From contig PLWR01000672.1 in assembly GCA_003165615.1 (NCBI GenBank), positions 1 to 6,209 on the forward strand: a stretch of DNA of 6,209 bases, written 5' to 3'. Made by a program: the position numbers and the translations under genes. This DNA comes from Acidobacteriota bacterium. GTDB lineage: Bacteria; Acidobacteriota; Terriglobia; UBA7540. The notes under the pieces are model-generated. The model searched no databases. It had not been told where the DNA came from and saw only the letters and a program-made list of their open reading frames with translations. Positions 1 through 6,209 of this stretch are shown here, in pieces (positions within the stretch are counted from its first letter, which is position 1; every line of letters starts with the position of its first letter).

Positions 1-492
1 CGCAATCCCATTACCGCCGAACAGATTTGCGGCCTGGCGCGGGTGGTGCGGGCGAATTCCCAGGCGGCGCTGGAAAATGTGGCCCTCTGGCATGAACGTG
101 ACATCTCACACTCTTCCGTCGAGCGCGTGATCCTTGCCGATTCCACCATCCTGCTCGATTACCTCCTCGCCAAGACCGCGAACCTGGTGGAAAAGATGTT
201 CGTCTATCCCGAACGCATGCGGGAGAATCTGGACCTGTTAAAAGGATTGATATTTTCCGGACAGTTATTATTGGATTTGGTGGAAAAGGGAGTGCGGCGC
301 GAAGACGCCTATCGCTGGGTGCAGCGCAATGCCATGCAGGTGTGGGAAACGCGCGAGGACTACCGCACCCTGGTGGAGCGCGACGCCGACATCCGACAAT
401 TTCTCAAGCCCAGTGAAATTGCCGAGGTTTTCAACGTGGAGCGCTACCTGACTCACGTGGACGAAATTTTTGACCGCGTGTTCGGGAAGTAA
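1..492 (+). CDS. purB: Adenylosuccinate lyase, C-terminal part (5' end outside the window)
   Basis: The frame is open from the first base and ends at TAA, giving 163 residues. It begins at RNP, which is probably the tail of the fumarase/aspartase-superfamily signature (SSxMPxKxNP), so the catalytic loop lies just upstream of the window. The segment ENVALWHERDISHSSVER (residues 24-41) is characteristic of PurB, and the following helical C-terminal domain (PERMRENLDLLKGLIFSGQLLL, then REDAYRWVQRNAM) also fits. The enzyme acts twice in cytosolic purine synthesis: it cleaves SAICAR to AICAR plus fumarate, and adenylosuccinate to AMP plus fumarate. The C-terminus lies where a normal PurB ends, so there is no sign of 3' truncation. 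No clear operon partner follows: the next 290 bases are non-coding. Identification is by family motifs recognised in the translation, with high confidence. Confidence 0.95.
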   Translation, partial: RNPITAEQICGLARVVRANSQAALENVALWHERDISHSSVERVILADSTILLDYLLAKTANLVEKMFVYPERMRENLDLLKGLIFSGQLLLDLVEKGVRREDAYRWVQRNAMQVWETREDYRTLVERDADIRQFLKPSEIAEVFNVERYLTHVDEIFDRVFGK

Positions 493-547
493 AGAATTGC
501 ACCCTGCTGCGGATTGCGATGATACAGGCTGCGAAAGAATTCTCGGT

Positions 548-705
548 GCTGTCATTCTGAGGAGGTCGCCACGGCGGCCGACGAAGAATCTCGCGTTGCC
601 GCGAAAATACTCAGACCAAGATCCTTCGCGTAGTTTACCCTGAGCGGACGGAGCGAGATTCTTCGCTGCGCTCAGAATGACAGCCACCGGGCTCAGGATG
701 ACAGC
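548..705. repeat. Short interspersed inverted-repeat (MITE/REP-like) element
   Basis: The outer ends are a perfect 14-bp inverted repeat: GCTGTCATTCTGAG at 548-561 and its complement at 671-684. A nested 12-bp inverted repeat, GAAGAATCTCGC, lies at 583-594 with its complement at 653-664. A near-copy of the right end (CTCAGGATGACAGC, one mismatch) follows in direct orientation at 692-705. The interior contains GATCCTTCGCG and CCTGAGCGGA, words typical of the abundant interspersed repeats that give spurious VILSAAKNL-type translations on the opposite strand. No transposase is encoded, so this is a non-autonomous element or structured intergenic repeat. It lies between purB and the GH172 gene. 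Family membership is from recognition, not a search; the inverted repeats are directly visible. Confidence 0.8.
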
Positions 706-719
706 ATTAATGCTTTTTT
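703..719 (+). terminator. Short palindrome followed by a T run, weak terminator candidate
   Basis: AGCATTAATGCT (703-714) is a perfect 12-bp palindrome, and its last T starts a run of six T's (714-719). As an RNA hairpin it could form only about four base pairs around a TTAA loop, so termination efficiency would be poor. It overlaps the end of the interspersed repeat and lies 211 bases after purB. It may be an accident of the repeat boundary. Confidence 0.25.
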
Positions 720-785
720 CCACAACCCGGATAGTCTTCGTGAACAACTGCCCGATCGCCACTTCAAATGCAGGAGGAACGCCTG

Positions 786-1952
786 ATGAAGCCAACACTT
801 TGTTTTCTATCGGTCCTGCTCATCCTGGGAGGCGCGGCGCTGAATGCCCAGCAGTCGCCGCCCGCCTTCAACGGGTTGGACATGGGAATGGGCAATCTCG
901 CGCGCCTCTCGCACGCCAAAACGCGCTCCATCAGCGCTGAGAATCCCAATGGAGAAAAGGGCAACGGAGGAATGGCCACCGAGGGATTGGGCGCCAATGC
1001 CGCGCGCGATCTTGGCCAGACCTGGAAGATTTCGCCCGCGGTTAAGATTGAGCCCAAGCAGGTCTACACCGTCGCCGAGATCGAAGGGCCGGGTGCCATT
1101 CAGCACATTTGGATGTCCCCCTCCCCCGCCGCCAACAATCGTTTCTCCATCCTGCGCTTCTATTGGGACGGAGAGAGTGAACCTTCCGTTGAAGTCCCAG
1201 TCGGCGATTTCTTTGCCTCAGGTTGGGGAAGATACGGCCAGGTTTCCTCCCTGGCGGTGTGCGCGAACCCCGCGCGCGGCTTCAATTCATACTGGCAAAT
1301 GCCCTTCCGCAAGTCGGCCAGAATTACCATGGAGAATGTCGGCGCCGAGCCGCTCATCCTCTATTACCAGGTCGATTACACACTTACGGAAGTCCCGAAT
1401 GCCATGGGCTACTTCCACGCTCAATTCCGGCGTTCCAACCCGCTGCCCTACAAAACCGATCACGTGATTCTGGACGGGGTGAAAGGTTGGGGACAGTACG
1501 TGGGAACGTATATGGCGTGGGGCGTCCACAACACGGGCTGGTGGGGCGAAGGGGAAATCAAGTTCTTCATCGATGGCGACTCGAAATTCCCCACTATCTG
1601 CGGCACCGGAACGGAAGACTATTTCTGCGGCTCCCACGATTTCGAAGTCGGGCCGGAAAACGCTCGCCACTACCAGGAGTTCACCACGCCTTACTCCGGA
1701 CTCTCACTCGTGATTCGCCCCGACGGCCTTTACGATTCCCAACAGCGCTTCAGCCTCTATCGCTGGCACATTATGGATCCCGTGCGCTTCGAGCAGGATT
1801 TGAAAGTGACAATCCAGGATCTGGGCTGGCGGTCAGGGGGGCGGTATCTTCCCCTCCAGGATGATATCTCCTCCACAGCCTTCTGGTACCAAACCGAGCC
1901 GCATGCGCCTTTTCCCAAGTTTCCGGATAAAGACGCGCTGGAGGTGAAATAG
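786..1952 (+). CDS. Secreted DUF2961 / glycoside hydrolase family 172 protein
   Basis: The product is 388 residues. The start is ATG 786, because AGGAGG at 772-777 is eight bases upstream; the in-frame ATG at 768 lies before that site. Residues 1-21 form a Sec-type signal peptide (K2, hydrophobic LSVLLILGGAAL, cleavage probably after LNA), so the mature protein is periplasmic or extracellular. The DUF2961 fold is recognisable from FNGLDMG near the mature N-terminus, IQHIWM, FYWDGE, VPVGDFF, ARGFNSYWQMPF, YYQVDYTL, then WWGEGEIKFFIDGD and GTGTEDYF. Characterised GH172 enzymes act on fructofuranose- or arabinofuranose-containing glycans using two glutamates. E277 in GTGTED and E255 or E257 in GEGE are the likely catalytic pair. 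The substrate cannot be read from sequence. No transporter or sugar-utilisation partner is beside it; the gene faces larB tail to tail with 39 bases between. The family call is strong, the substrate open. Confidence 0.9.
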   Translation: MKPTLCFLSVLLILGGAALNAQQSPPAFNGLDMGMGNLARLSHAKTRSISAENPNGEKGNGGMATEGLGANAARDLGQTWKISPAVKIEPKQVYTVAEIEGPGAIQHIWMSPSPAANNRFSILRFYWDGESEPSVEVPVGDFFASGWGRYGQVSSLAVCANPARGFNSYWQMPFRKSARITMENVGAEPLILYYQVDYTLTEVPNAMGYFHAQFRRSNPLPYKTDHVILDGVKGWGQYVGTYMAWGVHNTGWWGEGEIKFFIDGDSKFPTICGTGTEDYFCGSHDFEVGPENARHYQEFTTPYSGLSLVIRPDGLYDSQQRFSLYRWHIMDPVRFEQDLKVTIQDLGWRSGGRYLPLQDDISSTAFWYQTEPHAPFPKFPDKDALEVK

Positions 1953-1991
1953 CCGCGAATGCCAATTGTGGATGATCTTGCGACGCCGCCA

Positions 1992-2738
1992 TTATTGCCT
2001 GTTCATCACGCTGGCCAGATAGCCCGCGCCAAACCCATTATCAATATTCACCACGCAGACGTTGGGGGAGCAACTGTTGAGCATGCCCAGCAGCGCGGCG
2101 AGGCCGTGGAAACTCGCGCCATACCCCACGCTCGATGGCACGGCGATCACGGGCACGCCCACCATGCCGGCCACCACGCTGGGAAGCGCTCCTTCCATGC
2201 CCGCCACGCAAACAATGACGCGCGCTTGTCGCAATTGTTGGCTCTGAGCCAGCAGGCGATGAATTCCCGCCACCCCCACGTCGTAAAGAGCGTCGGCACG
2301 GTTCCCCATGATGATCGCTGTCACCAGCGCTTCCTCGGCCACAGGAATGTCCGACGTGCCCGCGCACACCACCAGAATTTTTCCTTTGCCGCGAATCTTT
2401 TTTTCGCGCCGAATGGAGATGGCCCCCGAAAGTGCGTGGAACTCCACCTTGGGATCGAGCGGACGCAGCAGCTCGTAAAGCGCGCGGTCACCGCGCGTGA
2501 CCAGAATATTGTGCTGGTTGCGCAGCATGCGAGCCACGATCCCTTTCACCTGCTCCGGGTCCTTGCCCCGCGCAAACACCACCTCCGGAAATCCCTGCCG
2601 TAGCGAGCGGTGATGATCGATTTTGGCATAACCCAGATCTTCATACGGAAGCGTCCGCAGGCGCTCAACGGCGTCTTCCACGGAGAGCTTGCCTCCACGA
2701 ACTTGTTTCAACATGCCGGTGATTTCTTCAGGACTCAA
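1992..2738 (-). CDS. larB: Nickel pincer cofactor biosynthesis protein LarB
   Basis: The product is 248 residues, about the size of characterised LarB. LarB carboxylates nicotinic acid adenine dinucleotide and cleaves off AMP to give pyridinium-3,5-biscarboxylate mononucleotide, the first step towards the nickel-pincer nucleotide used by LarA-type racemases and epimerases. It is cytosolic. The N-terminal part carries the LarB-specific stretch with DHHR (41-44) and [11 protein letters not shown] (49-59). The C-terminal PurE-like domain carries [11 protein letters not shown] (127-137), [10 protein letters not shown] (153-162) and [13 protein letters not shown] (179-191). C223 in LNSCSPNV sits where the catalytic cysteine of Lactiplantibacillus LarB (Cys221) is expected. 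The frame stays open upstream to 3008, but TTG 2738 is the start: AGGAGG lies six bases before it and the family N-terminus matches. That longer frame would overlap ubiX. LarC, LarE and LarA are not in the window. Confidence 0.93.
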
Positions 2739-2762
2739 GGTGTTCCTCCTTCTTAAAGTATA
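2739..2762 (-). promoter_or_regulatory. larB ribosome binding site and -10 box (TTG start)
   Basis: Read on the minus strand, TATACT (2762-2757) is a good -10 hexamer and AGGAGG (2750-2745) is a perfect Shine-Dalgarno six bases before TTG 2738. A four-of-six -35 (GTGAGA, 2785-2780) lies exactly 17 bases upstream of the -10. The expected transcription start, about 7 bases after the -10, falls at or next to the Shine-Dalgarno, so the leader would be only about 12 bases. The ribosome binding site decides the non-ATG start; the promoter is inferred. Confidence 0.6.
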
Positions 2763-2789
2763 CCAGCCCCCACCGGGATTCTCACTTCC

Positions 2790-2818
2790 TTGACTTCCCC
2801 TGGGGGGCCTACTAACAT
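2790..2818 (+). promoter_or_regulatory. Sigma-70-like promoter of ubiX, probably giving a leaderless mRNA
   Basis: TTGACT (2790-2795, five of six to consensus) is separated by exactly 17 bases from TAACAT (2813-2818, four of six, with the key A2 and T6 present). Only eight bases separate the -10 from ATG 2827, so transcription should begin at or within a base or two of the start codon. No Shine-Dalgarno precedes the ATG, which agrees with leaderless translation. The -35 boxes of this promoter and the divergent larB promoter are four bases apart (2786-2789). Confidence 0.6.
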
Positions 2819-2826
2819 CGCGTGAG

Positions 2827-3465
2827 ATGGCAAATTCCAAGACTACCCGCAAAAAACGGATCATTCTCGGCGTCACGGGGGCCAGCGGAGCGATTTTCGC
2901 CCGCCGCACCTTGCAAATCCTCGAGGCTGACTCACGCGTGGAGAAGATCCATCTGGTCATTTCCGGCAGCGGGCTGAAGCTGCTGCGCGATGAACTCGAT
3001 ATCGACATTTCAAAGTCCGCGCAGATTCCTGCGGCGCTCGCAGCTCATGCCACCCGCAAGACGGAATACCTGCGGGACTCGGACATTGGCGCTTCCATCG
3101 CCAGCGGTTCGTACGCCGTGGAGGGCATGGTGGTGATTCCATGCACCACCGGCTGCCTGGCGCAGATTGCCGCTGGAATTTCCGACACGCTGATCGAGCG
3201 CGCGGCAGACGTTTGTTTGAAGCAAGGCCGCAAGCTCATCCTCGCCGTGCGCGACGCGCCCTTCAATCGCATCCATCTTGAGAACATGCTGCGGGCACAA
3301 CTTGCCGGCGCGGTGATTTTTCCCATCATCCCCACGTTTTACGATCGGCCTAAATCGCTTGATGACCTCGTAACCCAGTTCTGCTGCCGCGTGCTGGCGC
3401 TCCTCGATCTCGAACAGCCGGAACAGTATCGCTGGGAGGGCGAAGGGAGGAGGCCTGGGAATTGA
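2827..3465 (+). CDS. ubiX: UbiX-family flavin prenyltransferase
   Basis: The product is 212 residues and cytosolic. The family joins a dimethylallyl group to reduced FMN, making the prenylated FMN cofactor of UbiD-type decarboxylases. The Rossmann-like N-terminus carries GVTGASGA (15-22), where the serine and backbone bind FMN phosphate. [13 protein letters not shown] (105-117) stands where most members read PCSxxTLAx[10 protein letters not shown] (125-132), [12 protein letters not shown] (144-155) and PTFYDRP (169-175, with the active-site tyrosine Y172) are all typical. The usual RE(T/A)P motif reads RDAP here (R142-D143), a glutamate-to-aspartate change at a position reported as catalytic in Pseudomonas UbiX. 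The last ten or so residues ([10 protein letters not shown]) look like an unconserved tail that runs into the tandem repeat. No ubiD is in the window; a possible UbiA gene lies about 2.6 kb downstream. ATG 2827 is chosen because it follows the promoter directly and fits the family N-terminus. Confidence 0.93.
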
Positions 3466-3503
3466 GTCATCGGATCATCGGGCCATTGAGTCATTGAATT
3501 GAT
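3464..3503. repeat. Degenerate 8-bp tandem repeat after ubiX
   Basis: Five successive 8-base units can be read: GAGTCATC, GGATCATC, GGGCCATT, GAGTCATT, GAATTGAT. The consensus is about GRRTCATY, with the fifth unit the most diverged. The exact 10-mer ATTGAGTCAT occurs at 3461-3470 and 3485-3494, three periods apart. The first unit overlaps the ubiX stop codon TGA (3463-3465). It looks like a simple-sequence array, and no hairpin with a T run is visible. Confidence 0.6.
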
Positions 3504-3595
3504 TTCACGCTGCTTTGTAATTTGAAATTTCGCCGCTGCCTGGTCCTCGATTCGAAGATCGCCCCTCGCGCCCATTTTTTATCGCGGAGGTTCTG

Positions 3596-4252
3596 ATGAA
3601 AACTCATTCGTCTCATTCAATTCGTTCACTGCTAATCGTGCTGTTTCTCTGTCCGCCGCTCACTCTGGGACAGGAACTCAGGCTCCTCATTCTTCCCGCC
3701 CCGCAGACCGACGGGGGCCGGCCGCTGATGCAGGTCCTGCGCGACCGGCACTCAGCACGCGAGTTCAGCCCCGAGAAACTCCCCCCACAGGTGCTGGCGA
3801 ATCTGCTCTGGGCGGCGTTCGGCATCAATCGGCCGGACACGGGCAAACGCACCGCGCCTTCGGCGATGAACTGGCAGGAAACTGATGTGTACGTCGCCAC
3901 CGCTGACGGGCTCTACGTCTACGACGCGAAGGGGAACAAGCTTGATCCTGTTCTGGCTGAGGATGTGCGCAGTGCCACCGGCGCGCAGCCGTTCGTAAAG
4001 GACGCACCCGTGACCCTGGTCTACGTCACCAATCTCGCCAAGACGACCCACATCCCCACCGCGGACACGAATTTGTTCACCGCCGCAGACGCTGGCTTCA
4101 TCGCGCAAAACGTTTACCTCTTCTGCGCATCGGAAGGTCTTGCCGTGGTGGTGCGCGGAGGCGTGGACCGGACGGCGCTCGCCAAGGTAATGAAACTGCG
4201 TCCCGACCAGAAAATTGTGCTGGCGCAGACCGTGGGTTATCCGAAGAAGTAG
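3596..4252 (+). CDS. Exported SagB/nitroreductase-family flavoprotein
   Basis: The product is 218 residues. GGAGG (3586-3590) lies five bases before the ATG. Residues 1-25 look like a signal peptide: R10, hydrophobic LLIVLFLCPPLTL, cleavage around TLG-QE. The sequence around C19 (LFLC) does not fit a lipobox, so it is probably soluble and periplasmic. The mature part is a single nitroreductase-like domain: RHSAREFS (51-58), the N-terminal FMN-phosphate motif; LANLLWAAFGINRP (67-80); TAPSAMNWQE (86-95); and the C-terminal half with DAGFIAQNVYLFCASEGLAVVVRGG. The family covers FMN-dependent oxidoreductases, from nitroreductases to azoline-forming SagB dehydrogenases. No cyclodehydratase or precursor peptide lies nearby, so azoline formation is not supported. 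The substrate is unknown. It ends 17 bases from the convergent three-Cys gene. Confidence 0.87.
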   Translation: MKTHSSHSIRSLLIVLFLCPPLTLGQELRLLILPAPQTDGGRPLMQVLRDRHSAREFSPEKLPPQVLANLLWAAFGINRPDTGKRTAPSAMNWQETDVYVATADGLYVYDAKGNKLDPVLAEDVRSATGAQPFVKDAPVTLVYVTNLAKTTHIPTADTNLFTAADAGFIAQNVYLFCASEGLAVVVRGGVDRTALAKVMKLRPDQKIVLAQTVGYPKK

Positions 4253-4269
4253 GGAGTGTTTGGGAAACG

Positions 4270-4988
4270 TCAGGCGCTAGCGAGTTGGAAATTATCTGGC
4301 ATTTGGTCCCACGTTTTGCCTTCCAATTCGCGTCCGGTCCTCTTTTTGTTCACACCGCCCCATTGCTTGAAGAAGAATGGAACGTTTGACTTAACACATT
4401 GATCTCTGATGGCCGTAACCCACTCGGGGTCCATCCGCCGCGCGCCGGGGCCAGATTCACCCCCGGCAATGACCCAGTCGATTCCATCAAGGTGCAAGTT
4501 ATCGATTGGCCCGAGTAGAGGTTCCAATGAAAGGAACTTGACCCTAGCGGCGGTCTTCCGAAGATGGTCGATTCGGAAGGCATATTTTTCGCTTTCCACA
4601 CTGACACCCATCCACATGTGGGGCATCCATGGAAGCATTGGGCTGAGTTCCAAGAGCCGATCAGAGCGTTTGGTTAGAATTGCCAATCGGCGCGCCGCAT
4701 AACGTCAAAGGCGCGCAGCACGAACGCTTCCGGAACTGACTTGTGGAACAGATCACTCATGGAATTTACAAATATGGTTTGCGGTTTCTTCCATCGCAGG
4801 GGGAGTTCCAAGGCCCGCTCGTGCAACGTCAGCTTAAAGCCGTTGGAGTAATTGGCCTGCCCCATGGCCTGGAGTCGGTGGGACATGCGTTCGGCGTAAC
4901 AGTGTTTGCAACCCGGGCTGATCTTGTCGCAGCCAGTCAATGGATTCCATGTTGCTTCGGTCCATTCAATTGTGGATTTGGTTGCCAT
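4270..4988 (-). pseudogene. Phage Gp37/Gp68 (DUF5131) three-Cys-motif protein, frameshifted
   Basis: The family's domain is spread over two overlapping frames. The upstream part (4988-4674, 104 codons) starts ATGGCAACC and holds [13 protein letters not shown]20-x6-C27-x2-C30 followed by YAERM, and [11 protein letters not shown]. It stops at TAA right after RRADWQF. The rest continues one frame off (from about 4686 to 4270): [48 protein letters not shown] and FFFKQWGG. Joined, the pieces give about 240 residues, near the usual family length, with only a few residues missing between DW and ILTKRS. The change equals a net loss of one base (or 1+3n). No slippery heptamer is visible and the downstream TTG (4686) has no Shine-Dalgarno, so programmed shifting or reinitiation is unlikely. 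The family has no established function; the cysteine cluster resembles an iron-sulfur or radical-SAM-like site (inference). It lies 3 nt after tcmP, so the two form an operon. Confidence 0.85.
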
Positions 4989-4991
4989 TAC

Positions 4992-5831
4992 TTACGCCAT
5001 CCTTGAGCGGTACTTTTCAAATATATCATCAACTATATCCTGAGCCACAAGCTTTGGAGATGCAAAGAAGAGATAGTATACGACCGCACCCTTGGAATTT
5101 CTCATTGGGAGAGGGGTTGCAACATTTGCGAAACCTCCCGCATGCTTCAAGCGCTCTACAAACCCGTCAGCGACAGTCTGATTGTCCGTCTTCTCTTCAA
5201 AACCAAACAGGTTTCGGTCTTTGGTGTAGGCGAGGTTCCTCCAAGAATCATCCCCCAAAAAAGCGTTCATTCGCTCAATATCGGCAGAGTCCACACCCTC
5301 TGGGTTTCTCCAGAGCACATTGCGGTTGATGTCAGCTACCGGGAAGTTCAGAAACATATCAATACTTTTCATCCTGCCAGCCGTTTGAATAACATCCCAC
5401 TTGAGGTGAAGACCGTATGGATCGAGGAGGCAAAGGCCTCTACGATAGTCGGTGAACTTCACCTTTGGGAATACTTTCCGCAGCAAAATATCATTGCAGT
5501 CGCCACCCCAGATATGAACATCTGGTCGTCCCCCGAACCGCGATTTTAGAACTGAGACCTTTTCCTGGTTCAGGTCGATTAAAAAGTACTCTTTGAACGG
5601 GGGGTCCACTAAGAGCGCATTCGTGGGGCTACCGGCGACGAGATCCCCAGTTGTCCTAGATATATTGTGGCCTGAACCAGCAAAGGCATCGATGTATGAG
5701 TGGTAAAGCGTGGGATTGCGCTGTTTCGAGATGATCTTTGAGTAGGCAGCAGCATATCCCCAGATGATGTCAAGTTTGATTTCCGACCAATACCCGATTT
5801 GGTCAAACTTCAATCCCCCTGGTAGAATCAT
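4992..5831 (-). CDS. tcmP: Three-Cys-motif partner protein TcmP (methyltransferase-like)
   Basis: The product is 279 residues from ATG 5831, chosen because GGAG lies six bases upstream; an in-frame GTG at 5843 would add four residues but overlaps that site. The family is named for its constant neighbour, the DUF5131 three-Cys protein, whose start is 3 nt beyond this stop. The first half reads as a class I SAM-binding Rossmann fold: YIDAFAGSG (46-54) as motif I, FLIDLN (83-88) with ribose-binding D86 as motif II, GGDCND (109-114) as motif III, and CLLDPYG (134-140) in the place of an amino-methyltransferase DPPY motif. The second half is helical and ends with LVAQDIVDDIFEKYRSR. Methyltransferase activity is inference; no reaction is established for the family. 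A+T content and ATA codons are higher than in the flanking genes, which suggests horizontal acquisition. The reading frame is intact. Confidence 0.88.
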   Translation of the reverse strand: MILPGGLKFDQIGYWSEIKLDIIWGYAAAYSKIISKQRNPTLYHSYIDAFAGSGHNISRTTGDLVAGSPTNALLVDPPFKEYFLIDLNQEKVSVLKSRFGGRPDVHIWGGDCNDILLRKVFPKVKFTDYRRGLCLLDPYGLHLKWDVIQTAGRMKSIDMFLNFPVADINRNVLWRNPEGVDSADIERMNAFLGDDSWRNLAYTKDRNLFGFEEKTDNQTVADGFVERLKHAGGFANVATPLPMRNSKGAVVYYLFFASPKLVAQDIVDDIFEKYRSRMA

Positions 5832-6110
5832 TATTTTCTCCACAAACAGGCGCAGATTCTGAGATGCTGCCGATTCTGCCTTACAGACATCAATTCCCGA
5901 GGCAATTTCCAGGGGAGGGATTGCGGCGTGCTATCAAGGTGAACCTAGAACTCGATAGCAAATAATCCTTTTAGCATTAAGTGGTCGGAAATGAAAGCAA
6001 ACAATTGCAGATATGCCTGGCGAGAAAATTCTAGTGAGTGTTCCAGCAGTCTATCTGCTCAGGCTTCTTGCGCGGGGTCAGGCTATAAGGCATCATAATT
6101 ACTTTTTCCT
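5832..6110. other. Intergenic region between tcmP and the terminal + strand gene
   Basis: These 279 bases are relatively A+T rich and carry no convincing gene. They should hold the promoters of both diverging genes, but no hexamer pair at good spacing stands out. TATAAG at 6084-6089 is a possible -10 for the + strand gene without a matching -35. A 35-codon frame (ATG 5991 to TAA 6096-6098) lies in the same frame as the gene at 6111; it has no proper ribosome binding site and a low-complexity serine/alanine-rich product, so it is not called. An inverted repeat at 5929-5960 is listed separately. No transposase or integrase remnant was recognised. Confidence 0.5.
5929..5960. promoter_or_regulatory. 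Inverted repeat upstream of tcmP, possible operator or hairpin
   Basis: TGCTATCAAG (5929-5938) and CTCGATAGCA (5951-5960) are complementary at nine of ten positions, separated by 12 bases. It is about 100 bases upstream of the tcmP start and has no T run on either side, so it looks more like a protein-binding site or structured leader than a terminator. The role is inferred from position only. Confidence 0.4.
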
Positions 6111-6209
6111 ATGAATGAGAACCTGAACTCGGACCACCCGCCTGGGGGTGATTCTGGCAAGGCAATGGGCCTCGCCGGCAAGCTCCGCACCACGCTCGAA
6201 ATGATCAAG
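6111..6209 (+). CDS. N-terminus of a possible UbiA-family prenyltransferase (runs off the window)
   Basis: The frame is open from ATG 6111 through 33 codons to the last base. An in-frame stop at 6096-6098 makes 6111 the first possible ATG; M19 (6165) is an alternative start. Neither has a strong Shine-Dalgarno. Residues 1-20 are a polar, Gly/Pro-containing tail. Residues 23-33 (GKLRTTLEMIK) resemble the segment just before the first membrane helix in UbiA-like polyprenyltransferases (LxxxLEMIKFxHTxFALPFA type). UbiA proteins attach a polyprenyl chain to an aromatic acid in the membrane during ubiquinone or menaquinone synthesis. A ubiX-family gene on the same strand upstream is consistent, since the two are often neighbours. 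The visible part ends before any diagnostic DxxxD motif, so the call rests on about eleven residues and context. Confidence 0.42.
   Translation, partial: MNENLNSDHPPGGDSGKAMGLAGKLRTTLEMIK

Follow-up and report, generated by a model that had tools for sequence, protein, structure and literature searches.

A 6,209-nucleotide (nt) stretch of contig PLWR01000672.1 (positions 1 to 6,209) of an Acidobacteriota bacterium, called the window below, carries on its minus strand the gene for a three-Cys-motif partner protein (tcmP) beside a DUF5131 (Gp37/Gp68) gene. Both families are large, have no known function and are entered in PADLOC as candidates for phage defence. We propose that the pair is probably a two-enzyme nucleic-acid base-modification module, on the strength of computed folds, family matches, genomic linkage and the interchange of DUF5131 with SplB-like proteins and with one true spore photoproduct lyase (SPL). 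The pair is already catalogued as candidate PDC-M41 in PADLOC; the analysis is of value for the supported placement of DUF5131 in the SPL branch of radical S-adenosylmethionine (SAM) proteins and for the partner interchange beside TcmP. A three-Cys partner of unknown function thereby becomes a specific, testable hypothesis, in which a methyltransferase and a radical-SAM enzyme cooperate, probably with nucleic acid as their target.

Folds and families of DUF5131 and TcmP

The DUF5131 gene of the window is interrupted, and both of its parts exceed the PF07505 gathering cut-off of 28.9 bits: the 5′ part (4674..4988, minus strand) matches positions 1–103 with 140.9 bits, and the 3′ part (4270..4686, minus strand, in another frame) matches positions 108–243 with 177.7 bits. 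A reading of this DNA from sequence alone had pointed to a C-X6-C-X2-C cluster in the partner; the cluster lies in the 5′ part, and the same spacing occurs in 68 of 70 DUF5131 open reading frames (ORFs) of viral loci, the remaining two being fragments. DUF5131 shows a radical-SAM fold, a partial TIM barrel, closest to SPL, which as a structural match scores about 2 Z units over viperin. It does not have the CX3CX2C radical-SAM signature, and excerpts of one article (PMC3742179) describe other three-Cys motifs within the superfamily. Neither half matched PF04055 at E ≤ 1 and PF20903 (SPL) was absent from their Pfam matches, while some relatives match both PF07505 and PF04055 and so bridge the two families. 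In a 31-row DUF5131 alignment, Y31, directly after the third cysteine, is invariant and takes the position of Y99 of the Bacillus subtilis SPL, a residue whose role we take from the same excerpts (PMC3742179). The only other invariant cysteine, C201, lies late in the chain, and a counterpart of SPL C141 was not recognised. PHROGs files the family as phrog_2045, function unknown, a search of PDB sequences with the DUF5131 profile gave nothing useful, and at least 8,000 candidates, all of those scored, reached E 0.001. The fold comparison supports DUF5131 as a divergent radical-SAM enzyme of the SPL (SplB) branch, predicted to carry a [4Fe-4S] cluster and to cleave SAM.

The product of tcmP (4992..5831, minus strand), which is intact, matches TIGR04474 over positions 1–262 of 263 with 174.9 bits (curated cut-off 53). 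All of the SAM-type motifs earlier read from it, DAFAGSG, LIDLN, GGDCND and DPYG, are present. Its fold is that of an RlmJ-like methyltransferase, with RlmJ the nearest; in sequence searches of the PDB, RlmJ was reached by the TcmP profile alone and a single TcmP sequence gave nothing useful, and PHROGs held no strong match. Motif IV varies among TcmPs (DPYG, DPFG, DPEG, DQQA), its Asp being invariant in 18 of 18 alignment rows, as are the Asp and Gly of motif I. The RlmJ-like fold and these conserved motifs support a predicted SAM pocket, on which the sequence-only reading had staked its proposal, along with clustered cysteines in the partner and genomic linkage of the homologues; the cysteines are clustered and the homologues linked. 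A winged-helix domain (PF22560) exceeds its cut-off in two of six TcmPs scanned against Pfam. Helix 1 holds an invariant K23 that MAFFT does not align with K18 of RlmJ motif X (Y4, H6 and K18 were the residues used for comparison). At least 7,482 candidates, out of 7,999 scored, reached E 0.001, and two long TcmP types had no relatives in viral contigs.

Partners of TcmP across genomes

The proximity of TcmP and DUF5131 is far beyond chance. We counted as linked any TcmP over cut-off with DUF5131 within 600 nt. The phylum of a Terriglobia bacterium (G005, locus L013) has TcmP in 39 of 297 genomes, at 44 places, 40 of them linked (21 TcmP-first, 17 DUF5131-first, one convergent, one divergent); three of the four unlinked places start at most 360 nt from the contig start and one (L038/L122) is followed by an SplB-like Radical_SAM protein. 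In the phylum of a Planctomycetales bacterium (G011, locus L019), where 33 of 246 genomes have TcmP, 28 of 33 places are linked; among the other five, one has DUF5131 at 1.2 kb, two lie at contig ends, one (L124) overlaps an SplB-like Radical_SAM gene, and the fifth (G536, L123) has no recognisable partner. The idea that the two genes recur as a pair is borne out. DUF5131 also adjoins TcmP in 17 of 23 named-genome loci, the match in the other six lying near the locus end (L016, L021, L027, L031) or being a fragment (L029, L030), and all eight plasmid and phage loci opened have a partner in the TcmP cluster (DUF5131 in seven, a Radical_SAM protein in one, L004).

Recurrence in phages, also claimed, is less well supported: matches came from 2 of 50,697 phage records, although IMG/VR yielded at least 80 loci. 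Among the 79 of these with a TcmP frame, 70 have DUF5131, six an SplB-like protein and three neither. Two of these three are at a contig end, and in the third (L212) the tcmP frame is overlapped by that of a Pfam SPL protein (PF20903, 82.7 bits, cut-off 27). Across both phyla plus the IMG/VR loci, the 18 exceptions comprise seven contig ends, eight SplB-like partners, one SPL, one DUF5131 at 1.2 kb and one TcmP for which no partner was recognised. Linkage of TcmP to a radical-SAM-type partner is near-obligate.

With L004, the SplB-like cases number nine; the PF04055 cut-off was passed by all five that were scanned (L122, L124, L004, L207, L214), and the other four rest on a custom SplB-like profile of which L122, L124 and L004 are themselves rows. 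A PDB search with this profile gave nothing useful, and several relatives of the SplB-like partner bear the JGI label 'DNA repair photolyase'. The SplB-like partners at L124:7763-8548, L122:10038-10892 and L207:4841-5638 have CX3CX3C (GCSHGCLYPCYA), not CX3CX2C, and by eye share a late Cys and a Lys with DUF5131. Some clusters hold two TcmPs per radical-SAM-type gene (L209, L211, L214 (about 2800-5620), L001:7983-11028 and L005:5992-8986), arranged as TcmP–TcmP–SplB-like or as DUF5131 with a TcmP pair, as though one radical enzyme were served by two methyltransferase subunits. At L142:6336-9989, the minus strand has a row of four genes: DUF5131, TcmP, a small one and an additional Radical_SAM gene (PF04055).

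The converse linkage fails, TcmP being absent nearby at 19 of 63 strong DUF5131 places in the first phylum and 27 of 55 in the second; of 12 TcmP-less DUF5131 places opened, none had TcmP. By eye, neighbours at three of these (L267:5498-8218, L268:4949-6602, L272:4306-7345) resemble what we take to be E1/ThiF, JAB and ubiquitin-like proteins, a nucleotidyltransferase and an OLD-like ATPase.

A proposed reaction and its alternatives

The earlier guess of an iron-sulfur or radical enzyme working with a methyltransferase gains support from the radical-SAM fold nearest SPL, the RlmJ-like fold and the linkage of TcmP to radical-SAM-type genes at all but a few loci. From these we infer the cluster, SAM cleavage, methylation, a common substrate and a role in conflict. 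The three cysteines of DUF5131 would hold a [4Fe-4S] cluster that splits SAM, and the enzyme would generate a radical on a base; TcmP, as an RlmJ-like class I methyltransferase, would methylate that base or a neighbouring one. The module is located on mobile and accessory DNA and most likely has a role in phage–host conflict, as defence or counter-defence. With less confidence than we hold in the module itself, we lean slightly towards DNA over RNA as the substrate, since a winged-helix domain occurs in some TcmPs and an SPL serves as one of the partners; the preference is tentative, because RlmJ and Trm1 act on RNA. A function in defence, rather than to the benefit of the phage, is likewise proposed more cautiously than the module. 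More speculatively, and on present evidence doubtfully, TcmP with an SPL-branch radical-SAM protein (DUF5131, SplB-like or SPL) may represent a general chemistry for making or removing an undescribed hypermodified DNA base in phage–bacteria conflict, in which the radical enzyme would work at a carbon of the base, methylation by the RlmJ-like enzyme would take place at an exocyclic amine, and the radical partner, being interchangeable, would tune the target.

The RNA affinities of RlmJ and Trm1 make it conceivable, if rather unlikely, that the module modifies tRNA or rRNA, for example shielding or restoring translation after RNA is cut or altered by phages or host toxins, with DUF5131 working like RlmN/Cfr and TcmP like RlmJ/Trm1; however, DUF5131 clearly resembles the DNA-acting SPL more than any other match, an SPL family member stands in for DUF5131 at L212, and two of the six TcmPs scanned have the PF22560 winged helix. 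That same closeness to SPL, the photolyase names given by JGI to relatives of the SplB-like partner and the retained position of the SPL tyrosine relay would all suit a repair or erasing system, in which DUF5131, like SPL, would restore a base that had been damaged or modified, TcmP would mark the site or complete the work there, and the link to conflict would lie in removing phage or host DNA modifications. We find this improbable, given that no Cys141 counterpart was recognised and that the patchy spread (39 of 297 and 33 of 246 genomes) suits accessory conflict genes better.

A substrate other than a polymer also has little probability, be it a free nucleotide, as with viperin, which makes chain-terminating nucleotides, or a peptide, as with enzymes for ribosomally synthesized and post-translationally modified peptides: viperin falls about 2 Z units below SPL, RlmJ, the nearest fold of TcmP, acts on a nucleic-acid base, and we noticed no precursor peptide next to the pair, where no systematic search was made. 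A further proposal, which we judge unlikely, leaves the radical enzyme in place and makes TcmP a degenerate, non-catalytic methyltransferase fold that merely recruits it to its target. The altered catalytic motif IV (DPYG, DPFG, DPEG, DQQA) fits this, as do the two-TcmP clusters (L001, L005, L209, L211, L214), in which one copy is possibly structural, but the invariance of the motif IV Asp (18/18) and of the motif I Asp and Gly fits retained SAM binding. The base-modification module, with both enzymes active, is the reading that we prefer.

The window copy, defence context and related systems

The spacing seen earlier between the two minus-strand genes is confirmed, with tcmP ending at 4992, DUF5131 beginning at ATG 4988 and 3 nt between them. 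The tcmP ORF reaches GTG 5843, and ATG 5831 is the likelier start because the 86% identical relative P0003 starts there; the closest organism-named TcmP relative, from a Terriglobia metagenome-assembled genome, is 86% identical. The sequence-only reading of two genes at 4270..5831 holds for tcmP, but it overlooked that DUF5131 is broken: region 4270-4988 contains two ORFs (4988-4674 and 4686-4270) in different frames and no single open gene. The copy is without a short stretch bearing His103 and Gln106, both invariant across the 31-row alignment, and relatives have intact copies. Because its gene is interrupted, the local DUF5131 is probably inactive, a dead or decaying copy, unless an assembly error accounts for the break. 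The profile of G+C content dips around the pair (4201..6000), to 0.48–0.53 over the pair versus 0.56–0.62 elsewhere (about 0.57 for the window overall), which hints at acquired DNA without proving it. The window is an ordinary, damaged member of an already catalogued pair. Its other genes encode the C-terminal part of adenylosuccinate lyase (purB), a DUF2961 protein, LarB, a UbiX-like flavin prenyltransferase and a nitroreductase. Between purB and the DUF2961 gene, at 550-685, reading by eye shows an imperfect inverted sequence (gtcattctga...tcagaatgac) that may be a dispersed intergenic repeat. Another reading frame, likewise noted by eye, starts on the plus strand at ATG 6111 (6111-6209) and continues past the window end.

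A defence role, one of several that the earlier reading considered, is less well supported and had already been guessed by PADLOC. The open-access literature searched, with preprints outside its scope, held no mention of 'DUF5131' or 'PF07505', no mechanism for the pair and, on phage protection by PDC-M41, predictions and a correlation only. In excerpts of PMC10855318, candidates came from 'guilt-by-embedding', and PDC-M30 was predicted in 32 of 100 Pseudomonas aeruginosa panel strains, 68.8% of which were phage resistant, a correlation only. One table, from an excerpt of PMC12445080, lists the TcmP gene SMa2243 beside the Hna defence gene SMa2245. We set 98 of the 140 ORFs picked around 20 chromosomal pairs against 98 of 140 taken as controls from 20 other stretches of those contigs, using a simple length-based ORF caller and scans against PADLOC and Pfam. 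At 1e-20, 165 PADLOC models were matched near pairs versus 69 in controls, the models being redundant and none having more than two members; control stretches likewise gave defence-like matches (MTase_II, HNH, a GajB-like helicase, DndA/SspA), with one member each. Among the 25 Pfam families listed (of 112 and of 131), helicases, ResIII, DUF1016, AAA_21, IrrE and phage integrase were found on the pair side only. Defence-gene enrichment around the pair is weak. Plasmid loci look more defence-like, with Abi, BREX, DUF1837 with a DEAD helicase, and McrC (7 of 12 plasmid matches opened, without controls).

Among known systems, PADLOC candidates PDC-M41 and PDC-M30 are the closest in likeness: in PDC-M41, model A matches TcmP of the window and model B matches DUF5131 (E 5.4e-50 for the 5′ part and 5.8e-61 for the 3′ part), B also matches PDC-M30, and A and B are adjacent in the same way, 3 nt apart. 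They differ in that B is in two pieces in the window, and the catalogue, as consulted here, gives no mechanism. SPL (SplB, PF20903), known from excerpts of PMC3742179 as a spore repair enzyme, has CX3CX2C where DUF5131 has CX6CX2C, and DUF5131 has neither a PF20903 nor a PF04055 match in the window and no recognised donor Cys. RlmJ, the 23S rRNA m6A2030 methyltransferase, is a housekeeping enzyme whereas TcmP is encoded by an accessory gene; the two share 14% identity in the structural alignment, the Pfam family of RlmJ does not match TcmP at E ≤ 1, and the DPPY of RlmJ (Asp164) corresponds to DPYG with the Asp kept. Trm1, the tRNA guanine-26 N2 methyltransferase, an archaeal, eukaryal and Aquifex tRNA enzyme, was not reached by the TcmP profile search of solved structures. 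The 3′ part of DUF5131 aligns weakly with TIGR04471, 'radical SAM mobile pair protein A' (56.7 bits, far under the cut-off of 355), whose name denotes a mobile radical-SAM pair and whose partner is another radical-SAM protein, not TcmP.
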